NCBI GenBank assembly: GCA_030609965.1
Contig: JAUWSQ010000022.1
Span: forward strand, 1-41,631
Source of the DNA: Candidatus Fermentibacterota bacterium
GTDB taxonomy: Bacteria > Fermentibacterota > Fermentibacteria > Fermentibacterales > JCC-6
DNA length: 41,631 nt
Reading direction: 5' to 3'
Under the pieces are notes generated by a model. It did no database searches and was not told the origin of the DNA. It saw nothing but the letters and a program-made list of their open reading frames with translations. Below are positions 16,001 through 39,920 of this stretch, in pieces; the stretch's first letter is position 1, and each line of letters begins with the position of its first letter. Made by a program: the position numbers and the translations under genes.

Positions 16001-16847
16001 CTTTCTCATGAGCTTCCGGAGCTCCGAACAGGCTCAGAAAATAGAATCCGTTCGAATCGTAGTGAACTCCGTTGAAGAACCCTCCCGTTTCCTCTGAAGA
16101 CTGTATTACCTCCGGAGCTATTGATTTGATCAATTTCTGATCATCTTCTTCAACATCCGTCGGAGTCAGGAACACAGAGAAAACTCTTCTGAACTCACCA
16201 TAGGGATCCGAATTGAGTAATTTCTCTGGGAAAAAGCTGGTTTCGAGAACTCTATCCGGAGACCGCCCGCCCATTCTGTCAAGGGTATAAGTTTCATCTG
16301 CGGGTGTCTTTTCCCTGCATAAGGCAAACTCTCCCTGTTCCGGCCTTTCAAGAGCCTTGTAAGCTCTTCTGAATACGTCTCCGGCGAAGAACCAGCCCTT
16401 CCTCTCTCTTCCGAAAATTCCCCAGTCAATTTTTCCATCACAACCGCCGGCTCTGAATTCGATTCCAGCGGTTGAAGATGCTGATGCGAGCGCCAGTCTT
16501 TTAAGCATCTCTTTCGCAAAAGCCTCTGCTTTTTCAATAGCTGTTCCCGGAAAGATCACTGCAAATGAATCTCCACTGTATCCGGATACAAAACCTCCAC
16601 TTCCCCTGATCATTGAGAGGATCCCTCTGGTATAAATTCTGTTCAGTGTATTTGACAGGGCTTCCGCTCCGCTGTTTCCCTGTCTGGACAGGGTTTCGGC
16701 CACGGATGTGAAGCCTGATGCATCGAATATCAGAACACTTCCGGAAAAAGACCCTGAGAGATTACCATCGGATAGACTTAGTGAGATCAGCCGGGGAACA
16801 AGATTAAGCACTCTTTTCCTCTCTGCACTTGAATTGAACTGCAGCAT
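13023..16847 (-). CDS. Tandem class III cyclase - AAA ATPase - TPR protein (soluble-adenylyl-cyclase-like)
   Basis: A 1274-residue cytoplasmic protein. C1 (about 35-170) has FDASGFTSV and GYSGDSFAVIF, giving the two metal-binding aspartates Asp42 and Asp93. C2 (about 220-370) lacks both aspartates (VFLTPTDVEEDD, FLSLFGAP) but keeps LGSQVNIAARI with Asn332 and Arg336, the transition-state pair. This is the asymmetric C1/C2 division of mammalian soluble adenylyl cyclase. Next come GRDEELGII and an AAA/NACHT-like ATPase with Walker A SASAGTGKS (about 425-433) and Walker B LFIVIDDIQWLDD (about 566). TPR-like helical repeats occupy about 830-1180. It lies 37 bases after the transketolase gene and is probably its operon partner. 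cAMP or cGMP as product is inferred, not shown. Confidence 0.9.
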   Translation of the reverse strand: MLQFNSSAERKRVLNLVPRLISLSLSDGNLSGSFSGSVLIFDASGFTSVAETLSRQGNSGAEALSNTLNRIYTRGILSMIRGSGGFVSGYSGDSFAVIFPGTAIEKAEAFAKEMLKRLALASASSTAGIEFRAGGCDGKIDWGIFGRERKGWFFAGDVFRRAYKALERPEQGEFALCREKTPADETYTLDRMGGRSPDRVLETSFFPEKLLNSDPYGEFRRVFSVFLTPTDVEEDDQKLIKSIAPEVIQSSEETGGFFNGVHYDSNGFYFLSLFGAPEAHEKDQERALTFARQIQNSAPFPVRIAVSSGTVYAGFLGFREMGTYTVLGSQVNIAARIMRFEKNSGIYASDSIAADIPESRIAISARVKGIADEVNIFRLDNSTVDSGRHPFEGKLLGRDEELGIITDLARQSADNCIGNSLLVSASAGTGKSHLLWEAGSILETQGFRRIHLRCEDIIIRSFGPFVTFLRGYFQQRRDSSEKDNFAVFSRIFKRTCTNLRDQYPKGVQELERTVSFLSALLGLDMPGSLYHQVGPEGKQENTITALRELFLGIAHPESLFIVIDDIQWLDDSSESLVRSMIRNLDNLPIILALAARTHDDGSRIEIPSEKDTVIIDLEPLQQQTLPELVKGILGGIPGPDLEKFLAAHSGMNPFYLRQYAVYLAESDSIQKKNNIITLSASPDKIPRGIVDLLMARIDRLSGDLKRVVRTASVLGFEFNARVLSAMLTGRELAPLLSNGAEEKLWSSVSEIVYIFHHGLLRETVYSMQLESELVKLHNIAACAIENIYPGDETFFPDLAYHWDRAKDSETACFYLDKVLGAASESGDVKLAYKCIVRLRELLELQPDRKDQLIGIMIREIKILGIFARCREAVELAERTEELALGAGDEKRYAEAMGMRAWLTSRLGDLKTAMEVNEKALEIHNELGYLKGIYESTGYLAAIKFMTGHVSEARTLFEKQLRIFEEMKDDTESSAKVYNNMASTAVDPAEKQQILEKAIDVAKQHKDKRLHSVSLGNLADVFHNRNQFEEAELTYRKALDIAREIGDRYYISYHSCGLAILKTDKGDYSGALKMLQEYCETSRDIGIRYGEAEALGYMAVVLMKQGKLEQALSTFDKAILIFQELDYVHYIYYFQADRARTLFRLGRLREAEAAARESNSLIEKQEKSEAMPENDSLLQRIRFENTESLEEKLSCIRAVQEIISKASNPVSIVIPVHDIWQMVQIPVDDMPEELSPAVLKKELVKILDRAVEEKPTHDIISIREDLKGPEVTCDT

Positions 16848-16884: not shown

Positions 16885-18810
16885 TCAGGATAATTCAGCC
16901 AGAATGTACTCCGCTACCTGTTCGGGGAGGAGCCCGGCCATCCTGTAAAGGTCTTCCGGGTCACCCGATACCCCATACCGGGTTACGCCCTTTCTTCTGA
17001 GATTGATAGCTTTCGGGAAACCTGCAGCGACAATCGCTATCTTCGCCCCCATGCCGGTGTCACGGTCGTGATCTTCCAGTGTAACGACAAGCCTGTATTC
17101 TGACAGTTCTTCAAGCAGTTCTGCATTTGTGCATAACGGGCAGCTTACGGCGTAGACAGCTGTATTTATATCACTGCCCAGAAGTAATTCCCTGGCTTCA
17201 AGTGCTTTACAAACCATGTTGCCCATTGCTACGATCGCCACATCGGAACCTTCCCTTATATGGTCATGGAGGCCGTACACGAACCTGTACTCTTTGCCGT
17301 AGAACGGTTCTCCGTTCTCTTTCGTGATAATCGGCAGTTTCGATCTTCCCATTGCGATGAAGAAATTCCCCGGATTCACTGCAGCGTACCTTATCACCCT
17401 GTCGGTCTGATCAGGGTCTGCCGGTACTACCGTATTGTAATGGTAGAGTGATCCCATAAGACTTATGTAGTTGATGCAGTGGTGAGTCTTTCCATCCATC
17501 CCGACATCCAGACCGCAATGGGTTGCTACAACCTTGAGGTTGGTCATGTTGATGTCGTTCAGCCTGTGCTGGTTGAATGTTTCATCCGCTGCGAAAACTC
17601 CGAAATCCGACCAGAAGACAACCTTACCCGCTATTGAAGCAGCACCCGCGGCAGTAGCTGTGTTGTGCTCCATTATACCCGACTGAAAGAAATGATCGGG
17701 ATATTCATTACCGAACTGCTTCGTTTTCACCGAACCAGCAAGATCACAGTCGAAAACCAATGGAAGGTTATCCTTGTTCATTTCTGCAAGATCCATCAGC
17801 GCAGCTCCAAAAGCACTTCTATTGTCTGTCCTGTGATCCGCATCGTAGATGATGGGAGTTCCCTCACTGCCCAGTACCGGGCAGGGAAACCTGAGATCGA
17901 AATCTCCCTCTCCCGTCCAGCCGTTCTTTCTGAGTTCGGTCAGTTCATCGAGGTCATCAGTCAGGCCAAGTTCATATAGAGCGGATTCAAGCTGATCGGG
18001 AGATAGAGCCCTGCCATGATACTGAGCATCGTTCTCCATGAATGAGACGCCTTTGCCCATGACGGTCATTGCCATGATTAGCCGGGGCGCGCCGGGTACT
18101 TCTTCCGGTTTCAGTGCCCTGTAAAGGGCGGGAAGGCTGTGACCATCGACTTCGGTGACATCCCAGCCGTCAGCCCTGTACTCTGCGGCAATATCCGTGT
18201 ACATGACCCTGTCGGTGCGTCCGGATATCTGAAGACCGTTGCAGTCTACAACAACTGTAATGTTATTGAGGTCGTATTTCCGTATGAATCTTCTTGCTTC
18301 CGCTATCTGGCCTTTCTGATGTTCACCGTCACCTGTGACGATCCAAACATGGTTTCGTATACCGTTTGCCCTGTCGGCAAGAGCCATCCCCGCTCCGGCG
18401 GACACTCCCTGTCCAAGATTTCCCGTTGTCAGCTCAACTCCTGGAACGGATCTCTCAATGTGCCCTTCGAAGGGGCTGCCTGCCTTCCTGAATGTGGCAA
18501 CTGCCCTCTGGAGGTCGAAGAAGTCCAGCCTGCCCAGTGTGGAATAGACAGCGGGTGAAGTATGCCCGTGGCTCACTACTATCCTGTCCCGACCGATCAT
18601 CAGTGGATTATTTGGATCTACGTTGGCCTGAGACCAGAGCAGAGCGAAGATTTCAAGTGAAGACATCGAACCGCCCGGATGACCGCTGCCCGCTAGCGTT
18701 GTCATCTTCAGAATATCACCCCTGGCGTTCCGGCAAAATTCCTTCAGTAACTTCTGTGCGCCTGCCCGAATATCAGAAGGTACAAACAGTGTTCGTTCTA
18801 TATTGCTCAA
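16885..18810 (-). CDS. tkt: Transketolase
   Basis: A 641-residue, full-length thiamine-diphosphate enzyme of the pentose phosphate pathway. The start is TTG 18810, overlapping the ftcD stop by three bases; no ATG precedes the conserved domain, and GGAAGG lies upstream. Motifs are SGHPGGSMSSLEIFALLW (N-terminal His region), HGHTSPAVYSTLG, TGNLGQGVSAGAGMALADR, the ThDP motif VTGDGEHQKGQIAEA to VVVDCNGLQISG, and the pyrimidine domain FWSDFGVFAADETFNQ. Linkage to ftcD and the cyclase is unusual, and no other pentose phosphate gene is near. Confidence 0.95.
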   Translation of the reverse strand: MSNIERTLFVPSDIRAGAQKLLKEFCRNARGDILKMTTLAGSGHPGGSMSSLEIFALLWSQANVDPNNPLMIGRDRIVVSHGHTSPAVYSTLGRLDFFDLQRAVATFRKAGSPFEGHIERSVPGVELTTGNLGQGVSAGAGMALADRANGIRNHVWIVTGDGEHQKGQIAEARRFIRKYDLNNITVVVDCNGLQISGRTDRVMYTDIAAEYRADGWDVTEVDGHSLPALYRALKPEEVPGAPRLIMAMTVMGKGVSFMENDAQYHGRALSPDQLESALYELGLTDDLDELTELRKNGWTGEGDFDLRFPCPVLGSEGTPIIYDADHRTDNRSAFGAALMDLAEMNKDNLPLVFDCDLAGSVKTKQFGNEYPDHFFQSGIMEHNTATAAGAASIAGKVVFWSDFGVFAADETFNQHRLNDINMTNLKVVATHCGLDVGMDGKTHHCINYISLMGSLYHYNTVVPADPDQTDRVIRYAAVNPGNFFIAMGRSKLPIITKENGEPFYGKEYRFVYGLHDHIREGSDVAIVAMGNMVCKALEARELLLGSDINTAVYAVSCPLCTNAELLEELSEYRLVVTLEDHDRDTGMGAKIAIVAAGFPKAINLRRKGVTRYGVSGDPEDLYRMAGLLPEQVAEYILAELS

Positions 18811-20513
18811 GAATCCCGGCCTTCCATTTTTTTGATAAGTTTGTCCCGAACCCTGTTGAATACGCTGTCGGCATTTTCAAGCGATGCTGCGAGGTACTCC
18901 TCCGCCAGCTTCAATGTGCTGCCGACGTATTCGGAATCCTCAATTTCACCAAGGTTGATCAGCACATTGTAGTACGCGCTTACCGCTGCCGCCCTGGCTG
19001 CCGCCGCGGCTACACCCGCATCGGAAACCGAAGCCTGCATGCCCTTCTCTTCAAGGGATGATGCCATTCTGATTATTGCAGGGCACTGACTGAGTACCCG
19101 CAGGGGTACTTCTATTGCTCTCTTTACTGCGGCCTCTACGTCTCCGCCCTGTCTGGCTGCATCCATCCATTCGTTGAATGCGGCGGTATCATCATCGATC
19201 GCGTTGAGAAGATCATCTTTGACTGATTGTGCTTCTGGAGCTATCTCGCGCATCAGGTCCCAGTTATCTCTGCATTTTCTATTCTTCACTGTCAGGTTGG
19301 CTACCATAGCATCAAGGGAAGCTCCCATAGCTCCAATGAGCGCTGCTGCTGAACCGCCCCCCGGTGCTGGAGAATCGGTCGAAAGTTCATCTGCGAAATC
19401 ACAGCATGTTTTACCCGAAAGGTTCACATCCTTTTCGGTGACCATGTACTCGATGATCTTCTCGTCCGGATCGAATGGAGCTACATCTTGAAGACCCATT
19501 GATCTGATGGCGATCTCGATGAGTTCCTTTTGAGGAACACCGGTTGTTCTGCCCTGTCTGCCCGTTGACGAGAGACCTGCATTCTGCTTTTCAACATAGA
19601 AGCGCCCGGCTTCCAGCATAGCTTCGAGAGGCAGAAGACCGACCACTTCAGAACCCGTTACCCTCGCTCCCAGTTTCTCAGCTTCCTCCCTCGCTGCTTC
19701 GAAGCCGATGTGAAGGGGAGTGACAGAGAGGTCGGTGAGATTCATTGTCACCTGGGCCGTATCGTACTCCTCTATGTACCAGCCAGTTGCCTTGCAGCAC
19801 TGGAGTTTGCCCGGCTGCTTTGTTTTATTGCCGTCTTCATCACGGATAAATTTCCAGTTGCTGTCGCGTAAAAATCTGCCGTTGTCTCTTATCGTAAGGC
19901 CGATATCCCTGGCTACACCGGGATCCTTAGTATTCAGATTCACATTGTATGCGATAAGAAAATTTCTGGCACCAATTGTGCATACTCCGGTTTTTGCAAC
20001 GCTTTCATTCCATTCGTTTGGACCGAAGTCCGGTTTCCATTCAGGCTTTCCAAGTTTGTCCGGAAGAGCTTCGTACTCCCCCTCCCGGATATTTGGGAGC
20101 TTCTCCCATTCCGGTTTTGAGGCAGCTTTTTCGTACAGGTATACAGGTATTCCAAGTTCATCACCTACCCGTTTTCCGAGTTTACGGGCAAGCTCTGCGC
20201 ATTCCTCCATTGATATACCGGAGACCGGTACGAAGGGACAGACATCTGTGGCGCCGTGCCGCGGATGCTCACCTGTCTGCGTACTCATGTCGATAAGCTC
20301 TCCAGCTTTCTTTATGAGCTGAAAACACGCTTCCACTACTGGCTCGGGATCACCTGCAATGGTGATAACCGTTCTGTTTGTTGCAGCGCCCGGATCAACA
20401 TCCAGAACTCTGCAGCCTGCAACCTTCGATGCGGCCTTAACAACTTCATCGATCAATTCTTTATTCTGCCCCTCCGAGATATTAGGAACAGCTTCGACTA
20501 TTTTCCTGGACAT
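18807..20513 (-). CDS. ftcD: Bifunctional glutamate formimidoyltransferase / formimidoyl-THF cyclodeaminase
   Basis: The start is taken at ATG 20513 (MSRKIVEAVPNISEGQN) with AGGAGG six bases upstream; the frame is open to 20579. The first about 300 residues form the formimidoyltransferase (VPNISEGQN, CRVLDVDPGAATNRTVITIA, TGEHPRHGATDVCPFVPV). Residues from about 385 form the cyclodeaminase (FADELSTDSPAPGGGSAAAL, DAGVAAAAARAA). Together they move the formimino group from histidine breakdown to tetrahydrofolate and release ammonia to give methenyl-THF. hutH lies 18 kb away; hutU and hutI were not found in the window. It heads the minus-strand operon with transketolase and the cyclase. Confidence 0.95.
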   Translation of the reverse strand: MSRKIVEAVPNISEGQNKELIDEVVKAASKVAGCRVLDVDPGAATNRTVITIAGDPEPVVEACFQLIKKAGELIDMSTQTGEHPRHGATDVCPFVPVSGISMEECAELARKLGKRVGDELGIPVYLYEKAASKPEWEKLPNIREGEYEALPDKLGKPEWKPDFGPNEWNESVAKTGVCTIGARNFLIAYNVNLNTKDPGVARDIGLTIRDNGRFLRDSNWKFIRDEDGNKTKQPGKLQCCKATGWYIEEYDTAQVTMNLTDLSVTPLHIGFEAAREEAEKLGARVTGSEVVGLLPLEAMLEAGRFYVEKQNAGLSSTGRQGRTTGVPQKELIEIAIRSMGLQDVAPFDPDEKIIEYMVTEKDVNLSGKTCCDFADELSTDSPAPGGGSAAALIGAMGASLDAMVANLTVKNRKCRDNWDLMREIAPEAQSVKDDLLNAIDDDTAAFNEWMDAARQGGDVEAAVKRAIEVPLRVLSQCPAIIRMASSLEEKGMQASVSDAGVAAAAARAAAVSAYYNVLINLGEIEDSEYVGSTLKLAEEYLAASLENADSVFNRVRDKLIKKMEGRDS

Positions 20514-20628
20514 CTGATCCTCCTGATGAGAAAGAAGGTATTCCTGAGAATGTAATTTTCCTGTAGATTCAAGTGTCAAAGCTAGGAAAAGGTGCTCTTA
20601 AAGTCAACGATTTATGATGGGGGAGTCG

Positions 20629-26162: not shown

Positions 26163-27107
26163 ATGAAGTACCATATAATTATTGGTCTTCTATTAGTAAC
26201 TACTGCTGTTCATGCCGGTTCTCTTCCATTTTCACACTCCGGCGTTCTTGATTGTCCTGACGCGTATGTGCTTCAGCATACAGAAGTAGAAATAGAGCTT
26301 GCAGCTTCAATATACTCCGTTGAGGATACCTCAGGCGCTTCCAACAGCGAATTCATGATTACCGGGCACCTTGATATAGGGCTGTTCCGATACGGTCAGA
26401 TTGGGGTGTCATTCCTCGGTGATGGTGGAATCGTCGGGGATGTGAAATTCGCGGTGCTGCATGAGGGAATTACGGTTCCAGCGTTCGCGATCGGACTTGA
26501 GAATATTACAGGAGAAGAATACGTTGACTGTTTCAAGATAGATTCCGCCGGAGTAGAGCAGTTCTACCCGTACGATCATGCACAGAACTGGTCAGCGTAT
26601 GGTGTAGTTTCAAAAGATCTCAGGTACGTGCTGGGGGTTCCTGCTACTATAAACCTGGGTATAGGTATAGGCCGTTTCGTGGGTATAGTGGGTCCGGGGG
26701 GGGCGATGGGTATTGGAAGCTCTGTAGCCAACGGACTTTTCGGATCTGTTGTCTACTACCCCACCGATGCAATCACTGTTACTCTGGAACAGGATGGTCG
26801 TGATTTTAATCTCGGGGCATCCTACGATGTTACCGATTACATTACTTTTCAAATGGTATGGGCCGAATTCGAGCAGGCGATATTCCCGCCTGAAGGTCAG
26901 AACAAAACCGATATCATGCAGAACTCAAAAGTAACATTTGGAATTCGATCAAGATTCGGACCCATCTTCGGAGCCGGAGAAATCGCCCTTGAACGTGAAC
27001 GTCAGCGAATTGAAAGAGCAAGAGATCGGTTGGAGGAGCTCGAAGCAAGAAGACGCGCGGCAGAAGCTGAACTTCAGAGACTCCGTGATCTTCTTGAGAA
27101 CCGCTGA
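26163..27107 (+). CDS. Outer-membrane beta-barrel-like protein with C-terminal coiled coil
   Basis: A 314-residue protein and first gene of the operon, with GGAG just before ATG 26163. The signal peptide is MKYHIIIGLLLVTTAVHAGS. Residues about 20-270 alternate polar and hydrophobic residues with many Gly and Tyr (LDIGLFRYGQIGVSFLGDGG, GSVVYYPTDAITVTLEQDGR, FNLGASYDVTDYITFQMVW), suggesting a barrel. The last about 40 residues (ERERQRIERARDRLEELEAR and on) are a highly charged alpha-helical coiled coil that would extend from the barrel into the periplasm. It could bind the TPR protein encoded next. No family assigned. Confidence 0.7.
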   Translation: MKYHIIIGLLLVTTAVHAGSLPFSHSGVLDCPDAYVLQHTEVEIELAASIYSVEDTSGASNSEFMITGHLDIGLFRYGQIGVSFLGDGGIVGDVKFAVLHEGITVPAFAIGLENITGEEYVDCFKIDSAGVEQFYPYDHAQNWSAYGVVSKDLRYVLGVPATINLGIGIGRFVGIVGPGGAMGIGSSVANGLFGSVVYYPTDAITVTLEQDGRDFNLGASYDVTDYITFQMVWAEFEQAIFPPEGQNKTDIMQNSKVTFGIRSRFGPIFGAGEIALERERQRIERARDRLEELEARRRAAEAELQRLRDLLENR

Positions 27108-27124
27108 AGAAACGGTCTGTTAAT

Positions 27125-30100
27125 ATGAAGCTTCGTTCTTTACTGTTTCTGTTTATCTGTTTTACTGCCGTTGCCCAGACAGCAGATGATTCCCTCGAAA
27201 TTCCTGAGCCTGCAGATTCAACGGAAACTACAAGCGTTCTTATGGAAAGAGTCCTAACTGAGCTGGCGGAAGTGGAGGCTCAGATAGGCAGGGAAGAGGA
27301 ACGACTCGAACTTATAATGACCGAATTGCTCGTGCTTCGAAGGAATCATGCCATGTTAGCCAACGCTGAAAGCGCATTTCTTCTTGGTGAAGAGCTCTAC
27401 TCCACTGGTTCGATTGTCTGGGCAAGAGATGCTTTTGAATCCGTGGTGCTTAACTTTCCACATTCCATTTACTACACCGAAGCTCTCTTCAGACTTGAAC
27501 TTATCGCCTTTGAACTGCAGGATTACGAAGGAGCAATTGAATACTTCAATACTTTGATAGAAGCTGATCCAGCCTTTAAGCTTATTGATCTTGCATACAT
27601 AGCGGCAGGCCTGTCAACATACAGCCAGGGGGATTTTGCAGCATCAAGAGTGCTTTACAACTACATAGCTCCTTCAAGCGAGTACTTTACATTATCGGAG
27701 TACCTCAAAGCGGTAGCCTTTGTTGAAGAAGGTAATATCGATGCAGCCAAGGCAGTACTGCAGACGATAATCAGCAATACCGGAGCCTCGTCCGAAGATA
27801 CCGATCTTGCTGATAGAGCCAGGATCGCTCTCGCTCAGATATTGGTCGACGAAGAGGAGGATTACGAATCCGCCCTCGAATACTACTCCCGTGTTTCACC
27901 CTTCAGTTCCTATTACGATATCGCCATGATTGGAAAAGTATGGACGTTGATGCGTCTTGAGAAATATCAGGAAGCATACAACTTCGCCGAGATAATAATG
28001 GAGGAGATTCCGAATTCGGAACTCATTTCTGAATTTGAACTCGCCCAGGCAAATTGTGCTCTGGGAGCTGAAGACCTGGATACGGCTATAGGCATGTACA
28101 AAGACCTGCTGGCCGAATACAGTGAGACGACCGACGACTACGACCTTTTTCTCTCCGGATCATCCCTTGCTCAGGAGGAGTTCAACCTTGAACGGGAGCG
28201 CCTTGACAGGATAAGGCTGGGTCTTGTTGAACTCAAGGAGGAAGCCTTTACGCAAGGCGACATGGAGCTTGTCGAGATGATCACGAACGAAGAAGCATCA
28301 CTGCGGGAGCTGTTCAGTGAAATCAGTTATCTCGAAACGATTCTTTCTCTGCCGGTTGAAATGGATACAGAGGACCTGGAGTATCAGCTGAGTGTCCTGA
28401 TCCAGCAGAGCAGAAGCGAGACAGAGATCCTTACTCTTGCAGCAGGAGAAGTTCATGAAATGACACAGGTCATGGGAACAGAGGAGGATCGCCAGGATCT
28501 TATTGCTGTTGAAAATGAGCTCGAAAGGATAAGGCTTTCACTTCAGGACCTTGCATCCAAGTTCGAGGGGGGCATGACCGCTCAGCACGACTGGGTACTT
28601 GAGACCCAGTATGGAATAGCAGTGGCTACTTTCATGGAGCGGGAACTGAAGCGCGATTCCGTTACTTATCTTGGCGCCTATTACAGAAACAGGATTGAAG
28701 AAGTACTGGAAGATGGTGATTCACTGCAAGCTGCTGCCCTTGACAGTCTTAGATCCAGGGAGATCAGCGCCATCAACAGAAGAATCGATGATTCTGCCAT
28801 TGTATGTGCAGGATATTTCGAGGATTATCTTGCAAGTTACCCCGATTCAAGGTTCATAGCTGATATTCTTATCAGGCTTGCTCAGCTTTACTACGATATA
28901 GACAATCTCCTTCAGAGCGAACGGCAGATTGCTGCCGGGATTGATGAATACGTCCCGGAAGATTACTCACGGTCGATAGAGCTGTATCAGTTGATTCTTA
29001 CGCAATACGCAAGCAGTGAAGTAGAGGACATAGCTCTCTATTCTCTGGGATATTGCCTCGAATCCATGATGGATTTCGAGGGAGCGGTGGAGAATTACAG
29101 AATTCTGCTGCGGGATTATCCTCAAAGCTACCTGGCCGCCGAATGCAACATCCGCGTTGGGAATTTCTACTTCGATATTCTCGAGTACGATTCCGCACTG
29201 GTTTACTTCCAGAATATTCTGGACTATCCAGCCTGCAGTCCCAACCTGTTCCAGCATGGTCTGTACAAACTCGGCTGGACTCAATACCTGACAAAGCACT
29301 TCAGGAATTCCATTTCCACCTTCGCTTATCTTCTAAGGGATGATCAGACAATTGACAGTCTGGGAATTACCAGAAGAGGTGATATCAGAATTCTCAACGA
29401 AGCGCGGGAGTATATGGCATACGATTTCCTTGAGATGCATGACACGTCACCGACTGGCGTTGATGTTGCCCTCAGCTTCCTGAGGGAATTCGGTGATTCG
29501 ATCACCACTGTCACAGTTATCAGTAAGATGGCAGAAATATCTGGAGAAATGTCCGTCTGGGATACATCTATAGAGGCATACAAGGCTCTGCTTGCTGAAA
29601 TACCATACTCCCCTGACGCCCCCGTTTACCAGCTGAAAATCGCGCAAGCCTACGAAGAACTCGGAGAATTCGCCCTTGCTGCCAACGCGCGTGACCAGCT
29701 TGTTTCCAATTACGGTGCAAACAGCGATTGGTACATGAATATTGGTGATGAATCGGTTTTAGCACTTACCGATTCCCTTCGGGGAACCTCCTTCGAGGAA
29801 TCTATACAGTACTATCTTGAGCAGACTGTTTCAATGAGGGATGACCCTGTAGCATTCATGCAGGCCAACGAAGCCCTTATCGATAGAATTGAGAATTATA
29901 TCCAGCAATATCCCGCTTCACCCAGGGTTTACGAGTATCAGTTCTACCTCGGCGACGCATTCTATCATACGGAGCAGTACATAAGCGCCGGGGACGTTTA
30001 TTTCAATGTTGCAATGGACAGCAGTTCCTTCCAGAGGCAGGAAGACGCGCTTAATAACGCGTTCTCATCCTACCTGATCGCATACGAGCAGGTACCAGGA

Positions 30101-31660
30101 GTGGACAGCCTTTCATTGAGAGAAAATCTTCGGGAAACTGTTCTGGCATACACTGACCATTACCCGAATGGAGAGAATGCCGCATTTTTCCTGTGGGCCG
30201 CAGCTCCAAAGTTTTACAACGTTGGTGAATACGCTTCCAGTAGAGAGATGTTTGGATTGATCTTCAATGATTATCCCCGTTCAGGTTACGAAGCACGGTC
30301 CGCCAAGTTCATAGCCGATTCCTACCAGCAGGATGGTTTGTTCGCCGAAGCGGAGCAATGGTACGGACTGGCATTGCAAGCCGCATCGGTAAGCGGAGAG
30401 GACCTCGGGGCTGATATTGAGGCCCTTGCTGCCTCTTCCGCCTATAATGACGCTGCTTCTCTTGCCGAAAGCGAGAACACCGAAGACCTCCTTGCCGCGG
30501 CTGCAAGATGGGAAGAAACAGCCCACGAGCACGCCGGGACCGATGTAGCACCCGTTGCCCTTTACGATGCTGCTGAGACCTACGGTAAAGCCGGTTCGAT
30601 TAACGATGCCGTGAGGCTTTTCCAGGAACTCGCAACAGTTTATCCCTCATATGAGAATGCACCAAACGGCCTGCTGAGGGCTGCCTACCTTCTTCGAGAG
30701 GATGGATTGTTTTTAAGAGGGGCGCAGCTGTACCTTGAAGCTTACAATACCTTCCCCGGCGCACCTGATATGAACTCCGCTCTGGCCAGCGCGGCCAAAT
30801 GCTACGAAGACGGAGGCAGACAGGACCTGGCGATCGGGGTTTACCAGCAGATAACCTCCGGCGGAGTCGGAACAGCAGGCACGATCATGGAAGGGTACGC
30901 AAAGATAGGTGAATACAATTACGATCTGGGAAACAACTCTATTGCCCGGAGCAATTTTGAGAACTGTATGATCATATACGATCAGTACAGCGATGGACGA
31001 ATCAAATACCCTGCAATGTCAGCCTTCCTGTTTGGAGAATTGTCAGCTGTGGATTACTACGCTCTGGCGCCTGTGAACCCGGAAAACGTTGAATACAAAA
31101 CACAGCTTTTCAATGGAGCTGTCGCGAATTATAACAGAACATTCACGTATCTTGATGACGATTATGTTTTCAGGGCAGTTCTGAAAATCGGCCAGCTTCA
31201 GGAGGATTTCGCCAATGCCATCGGTTTCATGGACCTTCCATCTGACGTTACTACACCGGAGGGTGAAGAGGCTTTCTATAATATACTGATGGAAGCTTAC
31301 AATACTTACATTCAGAGGGCTATGTCTACATATGAAAACGGTCTGCAGCTTGCAGTGTCCAACGGTATAAGAACCGAGTATACGGATACCATTGCAGTTA
31401 ACCTCGATCTGCTTCTTCCCGGATCAAGCACAAGTGTCGGTTATTCTTCATCAACATCTGTCCTTGAGGACACAACTGGTGTTGTGGACAGCACAGGTAC
31501 AGCTGATTCGGGATTTACTCCGGAGACAGCTGATGATATCGATGAATCCGGAACCACAGATGATACCCAGCTTCCAGAATCCGATTACAGTGTAACCCCT
31601 GCAATTGAACCCGATACAGATGACGATAGCGGGGGGGGGTGTTTCCTGTGGCCATTCTGA
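27125..31660 (+). CDS. Giant TPR-repeat periplasmic scaffold protein
   Basis: A 1511-residue exported protein. The signal peptide MKLRSLLFLFICFTAVAQ is followed by a coiled-coil-prone segment (about 37-75: VLTELAEVEAQIGREEERLE). Many TPR-like helix pairs with the YxxALFRL / DYEGAIEYFNTLIE pattern follow (for example about 85-330, 590-800, 930-1300). A long helical stretch (about 360-520) interrupts them. The C-terminal about 70 residues are a disordered D/S/T-rich tail ending GGGCFLWPF. The architecture resembles TPR scaffolds next to Tol/Agl-type stators. Nine consecutive G encode the Gly residues at the end, and the frame overlaps the next gene by 22 bp. Confidence 0.82.
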   Translation: MKLRSLLFLFICFTAVAQTADDSLEIPEPADSTETTSVLMERVLTELAEVEAQIGREEERLELIMTELLVLRRNHAMLANAESAFLLGEELYSTGSIVWARDAFESVVLNFPHSIYYTEALFRLELIAFELQDYEGAIEYFNTLIEADPAFKLIDLAYIAAGLSTYSQGDFAASRVLYNYIAPSSEYFTLSEYLKAVAFVEEGNIDAAKAVLQTIISNTGASSEDTDLADRARIALAQILVDEEEDYESALEYYSRVSPFSSYYDIAMIGKVWTLMRLEKYQEAYNFAEIIMEEIPNSELISEFELAQANCALGAEDLDTAIGMYKDLLAEYSETTDDYDLFLSGSSLAQEEFNLERERLDRIRLGLVELKEEAFTQGDMELVEMITNEEASLRELFSEISYLETILSLPVEMDTEDLEYQLSVLIQQSRSETEILTLAAGEVHEMTQVMGTEEDRQDLIAVENELERIRLSLQDLASKFEGGMTAQHDWVLETQYGIAVATFMERELKRDSVTYLGAYYRNRIEEVLEDGDSLQAAALDSLRSREISAINRRIDDSAIVCAGYFEDYLASYPDSRFIADILIRLAQLYYDIDNLLQSERQIAAGIDEYVPEDYSRSIELYQLILTQYASSEVEDIALYSLGYCLESMMDFEGAVENYRILLRDYPQSYLAAECNIRVGNFYFDILEYDSALVYFQNILDYPACSPNLFQHGLYKLGWTQYLTKHFRNSISTFAYLLRDDQTIDSLGITRRGDIRILNEAREYMAYDFLEMHDTSPTGVDVALSFLREFGDSITTVTVISKMAEISGEMSVWDTSIEAYKALLAEIPYSPDAPVYQLKIAQAYEELGEFALAANARDQLVSNYGANSDWYMNIGDESVLALTDSLRGTSFEESIQYYLEQTVSMRDDPVAFMQANEALIDRIENYIQQYPASPRVYEYQFYLGDAFYHTEQYISAGDVYFNVAMDSSSFQRQEDALNNAFSSYLIAYEQVPGVDSLSLRENLRETVLAYTDHYPNGENAAFFLWAAAPKFYNVGEYASSREMFGLIFNDYPRSGYEARSAKFIADSYQQDGLFAEAEQWYGLALQAASVSGEDLGADIEALAASSAYNDAASLAESENTEDLLAAAARWEETAHEHAGTDVAPVALYDAAETYGKAGSINDAVRLFQELATVYPSYENAPNGLLRAAYLLREDGLFLRGAQLYLEAYNTFPGAPDMNSALASAAKCYEDGGRQDLAIGVYQQITSGGVGTAGTIMEGYAKIGEYNYDLGNNSIARSNFENCMIIYDQYSDGRIKYPAMSAFLFGELSAVDYYALAPVNPENVEYKTQLFNGAVANYNRTFTYLDDDYVFRAVLKIGQLQEDFANAIGFMDLPSDVTTPEGEEAFYNILMEAYNTYIQRAMSTYENGLQLAVSNGIRTEYTDTIAVNLDLLLPGSSTSVGYSSSTSVLEDTTGVVDSTGTADSGFTPETADDIDESGTTDDTQLPESDYSVTPAIEPDTDDDSGGGCFLWPF
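31631..31639 (+). repeat. Homopolymer of nine G at the TPR / small membrane protein gene overlap
   Basis: Nine G in a row sit 21 bases before the TPR stop codon. Slipping back one base here (or one extra G in DNA or RNA) moves translation from the TPR frame into the frame of the 31639-32145 gene with no intervening stop, giving a fused product. The run could also serve as a purine-rich ribosome site for the GTG at 31648. Sequencing or assembly error in a homopolymer must be excluded. Confidence 0.9.
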
Positions 31661-32145
31661 TTGATTTCTGCAGGTATCTCTGTACTTCCGGAAGGACGAT
31701 CCTTCTTGCAACTCTCGTTCTAACTGCGGTTGTTACCATGGTGTATGCCCAGGCGGGTGGTGAGGATATTGAAGGAGCAAACTGGGTAGGCGGACGGCTC
31801 GTTCTTGAGGAGATAACGATCAGAGGAGAACTGAGAACTCCCCAGGCACTTTTCATGATGCTGAAGGCCGCGCCGGACCTGAGTAATGTGCTTCTTCAAA
31901 GGAGTTTTCTTGAAGATGTAATAAGGCCTGTCTATCCGGGTGCGTTTGCAGAGGATATGAATCTGGGAGCGGGTCGCGTGATGATCACCTTGCCCTGGTG
32001 GGTAAGGTACGGATCGGTCGCGGTACTTGGAGGCATGTCGGGATATAGATATTATCAGGGTGACGATGAACAGGGTCTGGTATTTGGAGTCATTGCCGGC
32101 CTTGATCTAATTGGGAATCTTATACTTGATCTGGTCGGAAATTAA
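31639..32145 (+). CDS. Small membrane protein of the stator operon
   Basis: Up to 168 residues. The start is uncertain: GTG 31639 is the longest and overlaps the TPR gene by 22 bp, while GTG 31648 (MAILIDFCRYL) has the G run at a better ribosome-site distance. A hydrophobic segment, GRTILLATLVLTAVVTMVYA, acts as signal peptide or anchor. A soluble part follows (LEEITIRGELRTPQALFMML, DVIRPVYPGAFAEDM). The C-terminus holds two short hydrophobic stretches (YGSVAVLGGMSGYRY and LVFGVIAGLDLIGNLILDLV). IRGELRTPQALFML reads like a partner-binding segment conserved with such TPR/ExbB operons, but I know no name for it. Confidence 0.72.
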   Translation: MFPVAILIDFCRYLCTSGRTILLATLVLTAVVTMVYAQAGGEDIEGANWVGGRLVLEEITIRGELRTPQALFMMLKAAPDLSNVLLQRSFLEDVIRPVYPGAFAEDMNLGAGRVMITLPWWVRYGSVAVLGGMSGYRYYQGDDEQGLVFGVIAGLDLIGNLILDLVGN

Positions 32146-32176
32146 AGCCAGACTGTTATTCAAGAGGAGATCATGA

Positions 32177-33046
32177 ATGAAACGGATAGCATTTCTACTT
32201 TTCCTTACTCTTACAATCATACTGGCAGGAGGTTCGCTGTTTGCTCAGCCGGCCGATGGTGCAAATCCAGACAGCACAGCCACCGATTCCACCGCGATTG
32301 ATTCAACTGTAGTTCCGGAAGACTCGATTGCAGCCGTTCCCGCTCCAGAGCCGGTTGAACCGGAGATCGTGACTGCAGTCGAGGAGGAAGCTGAAGAAAT
32401 AGAGAAGGGAGGACTGTTCTCCGATATGGCCCAGTTCTTCCGTGATGGCGGACCTGCAATGTGGGCCATTCTTATATTCCTTGCAGCCGGTATAGCTATA
32501 ATAGTCGAGCGGTTTATCTTCCTTTTCACTATTGCCGATATGAAGCCTGAAAAATTCATGGGCAGGATAGCCGAATTCATAAGAAAGGGCAGTATAGAAG
32601 GAGCAATCGCCTCGTGTGCAGATAAGAATGCTCCACTTGCCCGAATAATTGAAGCCGCTCTCAGAAACTACAGAAATACCGAACGTGACATACAGAATGC
32701 CGTTGATGAAATGGCACTCGCGGAACTGCCCCGGCTCAATGCACGAACTGGATATCTTGCAATGCTGGCAAACGTTTCAACCATGGTTGGCCTTCTGGGT
32801 ACGATATTCGGACTTATAGCTGCCTTCGAATCGGTTGCGGCCGCAGACCCTGCGGAAAAAAGTATAATGCTTGCAAACGGTATTTCAATGGCAATGAGTA
32901 CAACCGCATTCGGGTTGATGTCCGCCATACCGCTTCTGATAGCTCACTCCTTCTTTACCGCCAAAACTGATAACCTGATCGATGACATAGACAGATATTC
33001 GGTCATGGTTATCAATATGCTTGCTCAGGCCAGAAAGGAAGGCTGA
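32177..33046 (+). CDS. ExbB/TolQ/MotA-type proton-channel stator subunit
   Basis: A 289-residue protein. An unusual N-terminal extension has a signal peptide (MKRIAFLLFLTLTIILAGG) and an S/T/P/E-rich linker (about 25-80) before the core. TM1 is PAMWAILIFLAAGIAIIVER (about 93-112), TM2 is LANVSTMVGLLGTIFGLIAA with the family GLLGTIxGLI motif, and TM3 is AMSTTAFGLMSAIPLLIAHS. The cytoplasmic loop (about 120-190) has the usual family length. ExbB-type pentamers surround ExbD-type dimers and turn proton flow into motion. The gene is directly coupled to two ExbD-like genes (ATG overlaps the stop). Confidence 0.92.
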   Translation: MKRIAFLLFLTLTIILAGGSLFAQPADGANPDSTATDSTAIDSTVVPEDSIAAVPAPEPVEPEIVTAVEEEAEEIEKGGLFSDMAQFFRDGGPAMWAILIFLAAGIAIIVERFIFLFTIADMKPEKFMGRIAEFIRKGSIEGAIASCADKNAPLARIIEAALRNYRNTERDIQNAVDEMALAELPRLNARTGYLAMLANVSTMVGLLGTIFGLIAAFESVAAADPAEKSIMLANGISMAMSTTAFGLMSAIPLLIAHSFFTAKTDNLIDDIDRYSVMVINMLAQARKEG

Positions 33047-33612
33047 TGGCAAAAGCAGCAACTGGTAGAAGTCACAGAATCAGGCATGCATCGGAGCTTG
33101 ATCTCCTCCCGATCATGAACCTGTTCTGTGTAATAATACCATTTCTTCTTCTTAGCGCATCGTTTCTGGAGATAGCGATAATCGAGATGTCTCCGACCGA
33201 AGGTATCAGTACAGGAGCCGGAACTACCAGCCTCGCCCAGTCGGAAGAACAGCAGCTTCAGCCCAAGATAATCCTGACTAACGAGGAAATGTTCCTGGGC
33301 ACTGTATTCGGAACCAGGTCAATCAGTAGAGTGTTCCTGGAAGAAAGAAACGGGGATATGGTGAGCAGCTACGATTACGAGGCTTTATCTGATGCTCTTG
33401 AAGATTTCAGAGGAGAACTTGATACTTCTTTCCCAACCATTCCCGTGCACAAAATAACAATCCTTACAGTTGATGATGTCCGATACGATAACATTGTTAT
33501 GACAATAGATGTATGCGCTGATCATGATTTTAACCAGCCCGGCTTGCAGGTGGCAGCGTACAGCGTGCTTCAGAGGCAGATCCTTGCGGAAACAGGAGGT
33601 GTGTCACCATGA
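33046..33612 (+). CDS. ExbD/TolR-like subunit 1, Asn in place of the proton-carrying Asp
   Basis: A 188-residue protein with one N-terminal membrane helix and a periplasmic domain. SELDLLPIMNLFCVIIPFLL aligns with the ExbD signature DINVTPFIDVM: Pro22 aligns, and the essential Asp (Asp25 in E. coli ExbD) is Asn25 here, codon AAC at 33118-33120. It should therefore not carry protons by itself. The periplasmic part (KIILTNEEMFLGTVFG, IPVHKITILTVDDVRYDNIV) keeps the fold. It is longer than ExbD (about 140). It overlaps the stator gene by one base and the next ExbD-like gene by four (ATGA). It probably pairs with the second subunit. Confidence 0.87.
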   Translation: MAKAATGRSHRIRHASELDLLPIMNLFCVIIPFLLLSASFLEIAIIEMSPTEGISTGAGTTSLAQSEEQQLQPKIILTNEEMFLGTVFGTRSISRVFLEERNGDMVSSYDYEALSDALEDFRGELDTSFPTIPVHKITILTVDDVRYDNIVMTIDVCADHDFNQPGLQVAAYSVLQRQILAETGGVSP

Positions 33613-34145
33613 GCGCACCAACCAAACGCCATGTTCCTCTTACACTGGGACACAAGAAGAACAAGGCAAGTATCAGAGGCAAGGATAAGAAAGTAACACT
33701 GAATCTTACATCAATGATTGATATGTTCACGATTCTGGTTGTCTTTCTCCTTAAAAGCTACAGTGCTGAGGGACAAATCGTTACACTCAGCGACGCGCTT
33801 ACTCTGCCCGAGTCAAGATCGGAACAGAAAATCGAGCTGAACCTTGAGATAATCGTGACGAACGATGCAATAATCGTAGACGGGGAACCTATAGTATACG
33901 TAGACGAGTCACTACTCAGTGAAGGCAATCCAATTCCTGTCCTTGTGGAAAGACTTTCTGATCATTTGGAATATACCAGGCTGATGCGTGGTATCACAGA
34001 TGAGACAGAAATGAAGGTTAACATTCAGGGAGACGTCGCAACCCGGGCAATTCTTCTTCAGAGGGTCATGAGCAGCTGCGCCCAGGCAGGTTACGCCACC
34101 CAGAATCTGGCCGTAATCAAGGTGGAAGGTGGCGATGAAGAATGA
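33609..34145 (+). CDS. ExbD/TolR-like subunit 2, Asp retained
   Basis: A 178-residue protein. The basic N-terminus (GHKKNKASIRGKDKK) is cytoplasmic. The helix LNLTSMIDMFTILVVFLLKS keeps the essential acid as Asp38 (codon 33720-33722), in the family context xxSMIDMxxxLxxFLL. The periplasmic domain (IIVTNDAIIVDGEPIVYVDE and VNIQGDVATRAILLQRVMSS) has the ExbD/TolR beta-alpha order ending in the vxIxaD..t.y..v...m..c..aG pattern. It is the only one of the two subunits able to carry a proton in the usual manner. It overlaps both neighbours by four bases, so all are translated together. Confidence 0.92.
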   Translation: MSAPTKRHVPLTLGHKKNKASIRGKDKKVTLNLTSMIDMFTILVVFLLKSYSAEGQIVTLSDALTLPESRSEQKIELNLEIIVTNDAIIVDGEPIVYVDESLLSEGNPIPVLVERLSDHLEYTRLMRGITDETEMKVNIQGDVATRAILLQRVMSSCAQAGYATQNLAVIKVEGGDEE

Positions 34146-36001
34146 CACCTGCAAAGGAAGATGAAAAAAAAGTATTTGCGATTGCCATCATGCGGGACGG
34201 CAAAGTCGTTGGCAAACTGATTCCCGGTAAGGAACCTGTAAGACTTGGTACAGGGTACAATAACAACATAGTTGTTGAGGGAAACAATCTGCCCGAGAGC
34301 ATGGTATTTATAACTCCCGGTGAGGATGACGAAACCTGGATTCTGAGGCTCTCAGACAACATGGACGCAACCATCGAGTCGGAAGACGGAGCGATCCTGA
34401 AATTCACCGACCTCCGGGATCTTGGCATCTTCCCGGTTGACCCTGACGGATTCTATCTTCTCAACATAAAATACCTCGATCAGGGGCAGATAACAGCCGG
34501 CCACTTCCTTATTCATTTCGGGTTCATCGCTCCAGTAAAGGAAGAGGCTAAACAGCCGAAGAAGAAACAGAAGGTTGAACAGGTCGGGAAGAAGAAAGAA
34601 GAAAAACCGGATAATCGGATTCTTAAGATAGTAATTGAAAGCCCTGACGGGAAAACGGAACTGTTGCCTAATGCTGGCCTGATGACGGTCGGAGAAGCCG
34701 AATACAATACGGTAACCGCGAAGAATGTAGGTCTGCCCAGAATACATACACTTCTTGAACCGCAGGATAACAAGTATATCCTGAGATTGATACCCGGAAT
34801 CAAGGGCGGAGTAGAGGTTAAAGGAAGTGTTCTGCCCTTCCATACTCTGATCGAGCGCAATCTAATGCAGCAGGATAAATCGGACGATACCTATACATGG
34901 GTTTTCGATAAGGGAGTCAGCGGTATCTTCACTCTTGGCAGCATTGAGGTCTTCTTCAGTTTTGTAGACCCTCCAAAAGCCAGAAAAAAATCCAAACCCA
35001 AACCTTCGGTTCCCAGGAAGAAGTACAAAGCTCCTGATTACAACTGGGAAAATTTCGCAGCCAGACCCCATGATGGATTGGCAATGAAGGGAAACCGTGA
35101 GGAATCCAGCAGGATTGCCTTAGTCCTCGGACTTGGCCTCGCAATTGCCCTTCTGACAGGTGCTGTCTTTGACAGGTTCGTTACGGTAGTCCACGAAACC
35201 AAGGAACAGAAGCTTCGAAGTGCTCCAACCGCCCGCGTGGCAACACTTGCCAGCCAGACCAGAACCCAGGGGATCGGTGAGGAGATCGTGGCGGATATGA
35301 ACATTGGTGAGGAAACGGTGCAGGTTGGTACAGGAGGAGGCGGGCCAGCCGGAGGCGGAGGCGAGGGAAGCGGTGTTTCCGACGGCCAGGCCGCAGGTGA
35401 GGCCGTCCTTCAGAGTATCGGATTTGCTGCGTATGGAACTGGAGGTAGCGGTGGTTCTGCAGGTATAGCAACCGACCTTCAATCAGCTGCTGCCACAGGG
35501 GCCGGGCTCGCATCCGGAGGCGGCGGGGAAGCCGTTATAGCTGGAGCCGGCGGAGGAGGTTCAGGAGGCATCAGCGGTCTTATTGGAAACGGTGGAGGTC
35601 CCAGCGCAAATATAGAGGGAGTATCCTCAAGTGAAGTAGAGGCTGTTCACAGAGCAGCAGATGTTTCCTTCTCTGCGCATTCATCGAGTTCGGAGATTGG
35701 TGTTCAGGGACGAACCATGAATGATATCCGGCGGAAGACAAACATGATCATAATGCGGATCAAGCGTGCGTACGAAGATCTTCTGCGAAGTAATCCCACT
35801 GCAGCTGGTACCATCAGCGTCAGTTTCTCGATAACACCGGGTGGCTCCGTTGTTGGAGTAAGTGTCTCAGCTCCTGGCAATCTTTCATCCCTGACAGCTT
35901 CGGTGCAGGCCGCTGTGCAATCACTGAACTTCGGATCATCAAGTGAACAGATAGATAATATTCCTACCGGTGTTACACTTAACCTTGTTCCACCAGAGTA
36001 G
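34142..36001 (+). CDS. Tandem FHA-like domains - TM - Gly-rich linker - AgmX/TonB-like C-terminus
   Basis: A 619-residue inner-membrane protein. Domain 1 (about 8-125) and domain 2 (about 160-278) are FHA-like beta sandwiches (KLIPGKEPVRLGTGYNNNIV; LLPNAGLMTVGEAEYNTVTA), cytoplasmic by topology, without all canonical FHA phosphothreonine residues (no clear GR..S..H). A Lys/Pro-rich segment (about 278-300) leads to one TM helix (about 324-347, RIALVLGLGLAIALLTGAVF). Then come a periplasmic Gly-rich linker (about 395-490) and a C-terminal TonB/AgmX-PglI-like domain (about 525-619: NMIIMRIKRAYEDLLRSNPT, GTISVSFSITPGGSVVGVSV). It probably receives motion from the stator and reaches the outer membrane. 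Last gene of the operon. Confidence 0.85.
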   Translation: MTPAKEDEKKVFAIAIMRDGKVVGKLIPGKEPVRLGTGYNNNIVVEGNNLPESMVFITPGEDDETWILRLSDNMDATIESEDGAILKFTDLRDLGIFPVDPDGFYLLNIKYLDQGQITAGHFLIHFGFIAPVKEEAKQPKKKQKVEQVGKKKEEKPDNRILKIVIESPDGKTELLPNAGLMTVGEAEYNTVTAKNVGLPRIHTLLEPQDNKYILRLIPGIKGGVEVKGSVLPFHTLIERNLMQQDKSDDTYTWVFDKGVSGIFTLGSIEVFFSFVDPPKARKKSKPKPSVPRKKYKAPDYNWENFAARPHDGLAMKGNREESSRIALVLGLGLAIALLTGAVFDRFVTVVHETKEQKLRSAPTARVATLASQTRTQGIGEEIVADMNIGEETVQVGTGGGGPAGGGGEGSGVSDGQAAGEAVLQSIGFAAYGTGGSGGSAGIATDLQSAAATGAGLASGGGGEAVIAGAGGGGSGGISGLIGNGGGPSANIEGVSSSEVEAVHRAADVSFSAHSSSSEIGVQGRTMNDIRRKTNMIIMRIKRAYEDLLRSNPTAAGTISVSFSITPGGSVVGVSVSAPGNLSSLTASVQAAVQSLNFGSSSEQIDNIPTGVTLNLVPPE

Positions 36002-38148: not shown

Positions 38149-38399
38149 AATTTCGCAGTCTTAGCTAAAGCAAGGTAAATGCCAACTGCCGGGCCAACCT
38201 GATATGAATAGTAGAATGACTTACAGCACAGTGTTATATGGGTATATCTGCTATCGGGCGCAGCAGGTGAAGAAGTCCCATCGGGTATTCATGAGTCAGA
38301 ATGACACATTCCAGGGTACGGCTTGTATTATTTTACGGGAAAAGCTGTATATTCAGCGGGTTGAATTGAATGAATCTTTCCTTAGTTGACGGAGATTGT

Positions 38400-39920
38400 A
38401 TGGACAGGGTTACTATTGGAACAGAAGGAACAGATCTGGAGCAGGTACTGAGAATTACCGAAGGCGCCTCTGCTGCATTATCGGAAGATGCCAGGCTTGC
38501 TGTAAGGAAATCGCGAGAAAGGACTGAAGAAGTAGTTAGCAGCGGTAAGCCTGTCTACGGAGTAAATACCGGGTTCGGAAGGCTTGCCAATTCAATCGTG
38601 AGTTCAGACAAACTGGATCTTCTGCAGAAGAACCTGTTGCTCAGCCATGCCTGCGGTACCGGTCCGATCTGTTCAAGATCCGTTACAAGAGTGATGATGT
38701 TCCTGAGGATAGCATCTCTGGCCAGGGGAAGATCCGGCATTCGCGAGCAGACACTTGATCAGATGCTTGCAATCCTGGGCAGCGATATTTATCCGGCAGT
38801 TCCCATCAAAGGATCTCTCGGTGCATCCGGTGACCTTGCCCCCCTTGCTCATCTGAGCCTCCCGCTGATAGGGGAGGGCAAGTGTGTGGATTCAGGTGAA
38901 ATTATTACAGGGGCCCAGGCCCTCAACAGGATTGGATTAAAGCCTGTTTCGCTTGGAGCCAAGGAGGGGCTTGCCCTTATTAACGGTACCCAGACAATGA
39001 CAGCCGTTACATCACTGGCGTACATCGAAGCATGCAGATTGGCGGATGCCGCGGATGCAGCAGCAGCGATGTCTCTTGAAGTGCTGCTGGGCACAACGCT
39101 GCCTTTGGGCAGGGAACTGATAAACCTCAGACCTCACAGGGGCGCAATCGAAACCGCAGAAAATCTTCGGTCTCTCATCCAGGACAGTGAGATCCTGCTG
39201 TCGCATAAAGCCTGCGAAAAGGTTCAGGATGCTTACTCGCTCAGGTGTGTTCCCCAGGTTCACGGAGCAACCAGAGATGCCCTGCGCTACATTGAGTCGG
39301 TCCTGTCGGTGGAGCTTTCGTCGGTAACCGATAACCCCCTTCTGATGGAAGACGGCACCTTTGTGAGCGGCGGTAATTTTCACGGGCAGCCTGTAGCCTT
39401 TGCTGCAGATCACCTGTCCCTTTGCGTTGCTGAGCTTGCTGACATATCCGAAAGGCGGATCGAAAGGCTCCTTAATCCGGATCTCAGCGGGTTACCCGCT
39501 TTCCTTTCTCCCGATCCAGGAATTAACTCCGGTTTCATGATAGCTCAGTACACCGCCGCCGCCCTCGTAAGCGAGAACAAAGTTCTGGCACATCCTGCAA
39601 GCGTGGACAGTATCCCTGTGAGCGGCTCACAGGAAGATCATGTATCCATGGGCACTACGGCTGCTTACCAGGCTCTGAGCGTACTTGAGAATTCAACCCA
39701 TGTAATCGCTACAGAGCTTGTCTGTGCGGCCCAGGCCGCGGAGTTCATACACCGGGGCAGACATGGCCGCGGAACGTGCAGAATCTACAAAGCTATCCGT
39801 GATAAGGTTGAACCGCTGGGTGAGGACAGGCAGTTCGTCGAAGATATCGAAGCTGTTGCGGAAATGGTTTCATCCGGTGTGTTCAGCGAAATACTGAGTT
39901 TAATCAGGGACGGTAAATAG
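38400..39920 (+). CDS. hutH: Histidine ammonia-lyase
   Basis: A 506-residue enzyme that deaminates histidine to urocanate, the first step of histidine breakdown. The start ATG 38400 has GGAG five bases upstream; ATG 38370 lacks one. GSLGASGDLAPLAHLSL contains the Ala-Ser-Gly that cyclises to the MIO cofactor. Other family segments are YGVNTGFGRLA, SLRCVPQVHGATRDA, SSVTDNPLLMEDGTFVSGGN FHG and SIPVSGSQEDHVSMGTTAA. With ftcD at 18.8-20.5 kb it implies a complete Hut route using a formimino transfer to folate; hutU/hutI are not nearby. Its stop codon TAG lies inside the left arm of palindrome copy 2. Confidence 0.97.
   Translation: MDRVTIGTEGTDLEQVLRITEGASAALSEDARLAVRKSRERTEEVVSSGKPVYGVNTGFGRLANSIVSSDKLDLLQKNLLLSHACGTGPICSRSVTRVMMFLRIASLARGRSGIREQTLDQMLAILGSDIYPAVPIKGSLGASGDLAPLAHLSLPLIGEGKCVDSGEIITGAQALNRIGLKPVSLGAKEGLALINGTQTMTAVTSLAYIEACRLADAADAAAAMSLEVLLGTTLPLGRELINLRPHRGAIETAENLRSLIQDSEILLSHKACEKVQDAYSLRCVPQVHGATRDALRYIESVLSVELSSVTDNPLLMEDGTFVSGGNFHGQPVAFAADHLSLCVAELADISERRIERLLNPDLSGLPAFLSPDPGINSGFMIAQYTAAALVSENKVLAHPASVDSIPVSGSQEDHVSMGTTAAYQALSVLENSTHVIATELVCAAQAAEFIHRGRHGRGTCRIYKAIRDKVEPLGEDRQFVEDIEAVAEMVSSGVFSEILSLIRDGK

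Follow-up and report, generated by a model that had tools for sequence, protein, structure and literature searches.

A conserved ExbD1 lacking the proton-site aspartate in AglRQS-type exbB-exbD1-exbD2 operons

An operon of a Candidatus Fermentibacterota bacterium encodes one ExbB and two ExbD paralogs, and our alignments show that ExbD2 alone keeps the Asp of the proton site, that ExbD1 has stayed non-acidic throughout a very long evolutionary history, and that ExbB keeps the Thr residues of its proton path. We think it moderately likely that the three proteins form a proton-driven motor of the 5:2 type, in which a heterodimeric axle of ExbD1 and ExbD2 with one proton site would sit within an ExbB pentamer. 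The operon lies in a stretch of 41,631 nucleotides (contig JAUWSQ010000022.1; hereafter, the window) that belongs to a metagenome-assembled genome of 2.62 Mb from an uncultured organism, whose closest relatives with names are Candidatus Aegiribacteria / Fermentibacteria. Models of MotAB, ExbBD, and TolQR assume two alternating Asp residues in a dimeric axle and ten ions per revolution, and a 2022 review states that five ions per revolution would require an entirely new model (PMC9389320).

The operon and its proton-site residues

A run of genes on the forward strand (26163-36001) encodes, in order, an exported protein of 314 aa, a TPR protein of 1511 aa, a protein of 168 aa, ExbB, ExbD1, ExbD2, and a GltG-like protein of 619 aa (Table 1). 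The 314 aa protein is probably encoded by the first gene of the run. Profile searches of Pfam and NCBIfam found no family match for the 168 aa protein, and those of the 619 aa protein fell below the cut-offs (35.0 bits for NCBIfam GltG, cut-off 650; 31.6 bits for the AgmX/PglI C-terminal domain, cut-off 40). exbB and exbD1 overlap by 1 base, exbD1 and exbD2 by 4, and exbD2 and the GltG-like gene by 4, the stop of the former and the start of the latter sharing the letters ATGA; the overlaps of 1–4 bases among exbB, exbD1, and exbD2 suggest that their translation is coupled. Inspection by eye placed GroEL and GroES genes downstream of the run on the opposite strand and candidate histidine breakdown genes on both sides of the operon, namely a 590 aa protein resembling a glutamate formiminotransferase-cyclodeaminase fusion (18807-20579, reverse strand) and a 516 aa protein resembling histidine ammonia-lyase (38370-39920, forward strand). 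A 1274 aa protein (13023-16847, reverse strand) resembles, also by eye, an adenylate cyclase / AAA ATPase / TPR signaling protein.

Table 1. Features of the gene run and of the proton sites, in window coordinates
Feature	Position	Strand	Basis
314 aa protein	26163..27107	+	ORF; by eye, signal peptide, beta-rich body, and coiled-coil end
1511 aa exported TPR protein, same gene run	27125..31660	+	Pfam TPR families; NCBIfam YbgF-type TPR
168 aa protein between TPR gene and exbB	31639..32145	+	ORF; start overlaps end of TPR gene
exbB (AglR-type), 289 aa	32177..33046	+	Pfam MotA_ExbB, E=1.4e-26
exbD1 (AglQ-type ExbD), 188 aa	33046..33612	+	ORF; Pfam ExbD, 28.3 bits; member of D1 clade
Asn25 codon (AAC), essential-Asp position of exbD1	33118..33120	+	Sequence and alignment
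Pro32 codon of exbD1, +7 from Asn25	33139..33141	+	Pro in 54/55 non-acidic ExbD1, 0/11 Asp-type
exbD2 (AglS-type ExbD), 178 aa	33609..34145	+	ORF; Pfam ExbD, 43.5 bits
Asp38 codon (GAT), proton site of exbD2	33720..33722	+	Asp in all D2 read (66/66, 30/30, 30/30)
619 aa protein, putative GltG/TonB-like force transducer with AgmX/PglI-like C-terminus	34142..36001	+	Weak NCBIfam matches

Both ExbDs passed the cut-off of the Pfam ExbD profile (PF02472, ExbD/TolR; 25.4 bits), ExbD1 with 28.3 and ExbD2 with 43.5 bits. The initial annotation had placed an Asn in ExbD1 at the position of the family Asp and a retained Asp in ExbD2, and we confirmed both assignments: codon 33118-33120 is AAC (...ELDLLPIMN25LFCVIIPFLL) and codon 33720-33722 is GAT (...TLNLTSMID38MFTILVVFLL). 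The Asn of ExbD1 was aligned with the family Asp without gaps in 36 homologs, and likewise in profile alignments of more than 100. The family is characterized by an N-terminal membrane helix with a proton-carrying Asp, which ExbD2 possesses; the helix of ExbD1 has Asn25 and no other acidic residue. The remaining three ExbDs of the same genome all have Asp at the site. We conclude from these alignments that ExbD1 is an ExbD by descent that lacks the catalytic residue. The confidence of single-chain AF2 models of the two proteins was too low for them to be used (mean pLDDT, 42.6 and 57.9); searches of the PDB and of plasmids with ExbD1 gave no match, and a search of the PDB with ExbD2 retrieved no ExbD or TolR chain.

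ExbB has both traits expected of PF01618 (ExbB/TolQ), a profile match (E=1.4e-26) and two channel-lining Thr residues, Thr209 and Thr243, which from the alignment we take to be the counterparts of T148 and T181 in the E. coli protein. Because Thr209 and Thr243 are invariant in all 66 trios of the survey described below, the ExbB ring still has the appearance of a proton channel.

Conservation and ancestry of the non-acidic ExbD1

ExbD1 was present in 37 of the 41 other genomes of the order, and every order genome whose locus was read (n=29), as well as the five named records L036-L040, combined Asn in ExbD1 with Asp in ExbD2. Both AAC and AAT occur among these relatives, and it is thus the amino acid rather than the codon that is conserved. 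The same residues were found in Candidatus Thiodiazotropha (L041, Pseudomonadota), whose ExbD1 is 26% identical to the one described here.

We scanned 385 genomes with a profile of ExbD1 and then with a profile of ExbD2, the latter added to avoid a bias from the ExbD1 residue, and extracted and read 80 regions. Outside the order, this gave 66 exbB-exbD1-exbD2 pairs with adjacent genes, spread over 59 genomes of 44 families. The ExbD2 site was Asp in 66/66, and the ExbD1 site was Asp in 11 and non-acidic in the other 55 (49 Asn, 3 Gly, 2 Ser, and 1 Thr). In a putatively gammaproteobacterial class, taken as such because the nearest relatives of the Thiodiazotropha sequence belong to it, we found Asn in 29/29 ExbD1 and Asp in 30/30 ExbD2. 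Another class had Asp in both chains (30/30 each); we tentatively assign it to Myxococcia because its genomes measure 9-10 Mb and its D1 and D2 match in length the values that PMC3169522 lists for AglQ, 162 aa, and for AglS, about 194 aa. Non-acidic ExbD1 spans about 64 family-level groups when family codes are counted.

The initial annotation had made support for its claim depend on conservation of Asn, or another residue than Asp, in the first subunit and of Asp in the second, and alignment of the homologs of both bore this out: in over 60 family-level groups, the first is non-acidic and the second has Asp. Two parts of the proposal need qualification. Asn itself is not obligatory, since Ser, Gly, and Thr also occur, so that what is preserved is an uncharged residue that lacks a carboxylate. 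Furthermore, the pairing of one Asp-bearing with one Asp-less chain applies to most trios, but one ExbD1 branch, which includes the myxobacterial AglQ type, has Asp, and the trio operon is therefore not uniformly one-Asp.

Asn and Asp codons are one base apart and our sequence comes from a metagenome-assembled genome, as would suit an assembly error, or a mutation confined to this genome, in an ExbD1 that ancestrally had Asp. Such an origin is nevertheless refuted by conservation, the site being non-acidic in 29 genomes of the order, in 55/66 distant pairs, and in 29/29 gammaproteobacterial pairs, with both Asn codons in use, and we assign it a negligible probability. The Asp-less ExbD1 is, on the evidence of this distribution, an old and selected subfamily. 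We also considered whether an acidic residue had shifted to another position in the D1 helix and rejected this, as no such acid was present in any non-acidic ExbD1 among the 66 surveyed pairs. The reciprocal swap seen between the chains of this operon (D at −6 and N at 0 in D1, N at −6 and D at 0 in D2) is not general either; in L021, L041, and many more, the two positions are both Asn.

ExbD1 and ExbD2 travel together. Outside the order, all genomes with an ExbD2 match of at least 40 bits also carry ExbD1, and the two genes almost always lie side by side, with the trio arranged as B-D1-D2; a few genomes, such as G145 and those of family f73, have them at separate places. In the f73 genomes (G252, G381, and G111; loci L079, L082, and L084 with L129, L133, and L137), the trio is split, with D1 and D2 on different contigs, and ExbD1 bears Asp (PFIDMLSV). 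One locus (L140, G287:C2:74000-83000) holds two full trios in head-to-head orientation, each with an Asp-type ExbD1, and at two others (L109, G263:C81; L142, G120:C267) an extra exbB gene adjoins the trio.

In phylogenetic analysis, D1 and D2 formed separate, well-supported clades (100; D1 97, D2 94), which include the Myxococcia and Gammaproteobacteria pairs. Asp-type D1 sequences fell in about three places on a quick tree, and their constraint to one clade was not rejected and scored better (AU p=0.94). With D2 and ordinary ExbDs as outgroups and the D1 root not fixed, the simplest reading would be a single early loss of Asp in the non-acidic D1 branch. Pro at +7 was found in 54/55 non-acidic ExbD1 and 0/11 Asp-type ExbD1 (Fisher p=1e-11), although two gammaproteobacteria have an Asn-type ExbD1 with Ser or Cys instead. 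Because of these two exceptions, and because Asp-type D1 may form one clade, the link between Pro and Asn represents one or a few events and is no proof of coupling. Two positions in the partner proteins also differed by ExbD1 type: ExbB position 242 (Thr in 54/55 trios with non-acidic ExbD1 versus Asn, Cys, or Ala) and ExbD2 position −3 (Ser35 here; Ser in 51/55 versus Pro or Ala). Thr242 is also present, by eye, in ordinary ExbBs of the same genome. All three features may mirror one split in the tree, and we regard them as leads rather than as evidence of coupling.

As a control, we read 61 other ExbDs, single and tandem, and found Asp in 60 and Asn in 1; 17 of the 18 other tandem pairs were Asp/Asp. 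The genome that carries the exceptional pair (G088) abounds in HIP1, a cyanobacterial palindrome, and it is from these palindromes that we assign its class to the cyanobacteria. The class yielded 14 ExbDs without Asp (Asn 11, Thr 3), and the neighboring ExbD had Asp wherever it was read. At loci L157 and L188-L209 of this class, the Asn/Thr chain has the motif PML[NT]VMMGVLAFF, its Asp partner has PMMDVLMSVLTFF, and the gene order is variable. The cyanobacterial pairs form a branch of their own outside the D1/D2 clade, with supports of 99 and 98, so one-Asp pairs arose at least twice.

A candidate motor with one proton site

The one-site heterodimer is the reading we favor, because a non-acidic D1 and an Asp-bearing D2 are widely kept, are co-encoded, and belong to separate clades, and because the Thr residues of ExbB are intact. 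The initial annotation had raised the idea that such a heterodimer would make the motor step asymmetric. We infer that this is so and that D1 and D2 share one pore, with a stoichiometry of 5:1:1. In such a motor, the cycle of protonation and deprotonation would take place on ExbD2 only, and ExbD1 would fill the second place of the axle as a permanently neutral chain that mimics the protonated state. Because Ser, Gly, and Thr also occur, the ExbD1 site would need no particular chemistry, only the absence of charge. In structures of MotB D22N, Asn stands in for the protonated form of Asp and causes little change (Rieu et al., 2022; PMC9389320).

With a single Asp beside a neutral chain, the axle would allow no alternation between Asp residues, and each proton would have to drive an advance of 72 degrees, so that a turn would consume about 5 protons instead of 10. 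The other half-step could come from an elastic or steric fit with ExbB, with the neutral chain passive. The GltG/TonB-like protein (34142-36001) would receive the output and relay it to the TPR proteins and outer-membrane components of a core complex of the Glt/Agl type. Two points stand against the one-site heterodimer. In the published turnstile model, two Asp residues swap protons, with 36 degrees per swap and ten ions per turn (PMC9389320), and this leaves no place for a one-site axle. In addition, the AglQ-type D1 of Myxococcia has Asp (30/30), so a two-site version of the architecture exists, to judge from these genes.

Since the solved 5:2 motors all have homodimeric axles (PMC9389320), the axle could also be an ordinary ExbD2 homodimer with two Asp, with ExbD1 outside the cycle as a peg, a plug, a regulator that forms inactive complexes with ExbB, or a periplasmic or peptidoglycan-binding partner. 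Loss of Asp is expected for a chain freed from proton transfer, and the occurrence of Ser, Gly, and Thr at the D1 site indicates that no special chemistry is kept. A freed chain would, however, be expected to vanish or drift in some lineages, whereas D1 and D2 co-occur and are co-encoded, and ExbD1 retains the pore-helix signature xNLxxxxIPFLL around the site despite 26% identity. We consider an ExbD2 homodimer possible but on the unlikely side. We regard as improbable a mixture of pores in one cell (D2:D2, D1:D2, and D1:D1, with two, one, and no sites), in which the D1:D2 ratio would tune torque or leak: the overlapping genes should yield similar amounts of the two chains, which speaks for it, but D1 and D2 have diverged strongly into separate clades, also within the membrane helix (Pro at +7 in D1 only, Ser at −3 in D2), and this fits specialized places better than interchange.

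Extended beyond this operon, the one-site heterodimer would imply that natural 5:1:1 motors with an obligate heterodimeric axle, a single proton site, and 5 protons per turn are widespread and evolved at least twice, in AglRQS-type trios and in cyanobacterial pairs; we judge the case for this wider proposal to be evenly balanced. A natural one-Asp axle found in more than 60 family-level groups and reached twice would open to direct test the rule that two sites alternate in 5:2 motors, and if the single-site heterodimer is real, two-site alternation is not essential to the motor superfamily. As D1 and D2 are distinct chains, one can be labeled, mutated, or cross-linked alone, which is impossible in a homodimer.

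Comparison with known systems

The gliding motor AglR-AglQ-AglS of M. xanthus has the same exbB-exbD1-exbD2 gene order and the same two ExbD clades as the operon described here; its GltG/TonB-like and TPR partners have putative counterparts here. Substitution D28N in AglQ reportedly abolishes gliding. The AglQ-type D1 of Myxococcia has Asp (30/30) and no Pro at +7, whereas D1 here has Asn and Pro. The gliding motor proper is distinguished by Asp in both AglQ and AglS, and the operon departs from it at Asn25 of D1. The Asp in both chains of our Myxococcia class (30/30) agrees with the description of AglQ and AglS by Rieu et al. (2022; PMC9389320), according to which both carry Asp and it is not known whether they form hetero- or homodimers. 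Our survey corrects the impression, based on AglQ and AglS, that both chains carry Asp: beyond Myxococcia and a few lineages, most trios do not have it in both. We found no description of an Asp-less ExbD in the open-access literature, which is weak evidence of novelty.

The AglRQS/Group B core complex is marked by an operon that joins exbB to one exbD of the AglQ clade and one of the AglS clade, as is the case here, and the operon is, by its genes, probably of the ancestral Glt/Agl "core complex" type. In the sections of Luciano et al. (2011; PMC3169522) consulted here, the Group B core complex is defined as gltC, D, E, and G with aglR, Q, and S; it is reported from non-gliding Gammaproteobacteria and Fibrobacter, its function is called unknown, and the myxobacterial AglRQS-Glt gliding machine is derived from it. 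As described there, it is a compact operon like ours, with genes for TPR proteins, an ExbB, and a pair of ExbDs, and its GltG-like TonB protein has a putative counterpart in our 619 aa protein; the Thiodiazotropha locus, which has the same Asn/Asp split, resembles it as well. The taxon set given there (Proteobacteria, Fibrobacter) is far smaller than that of the present survey, and the same sections make no mention of the missing Asp.

The cyanobacterial tandem pairs, like our trio, consist of adjacent genes for an Asn/Thr chain and an Asp-bearing partner, but they belong to a separate ExbD branch, have a variable gene order, and lack Pro at +7, which makes them an independent second case. Like the ExbBD, TolQR, and MotAB 5:2 motors, the trio has a pentamer-type ExbB with both proton-path Thr residues and single-helix ExbDs. 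In those motors, however, the axles are homodimers with two Asp, whereas here one of two paralogs is without it.
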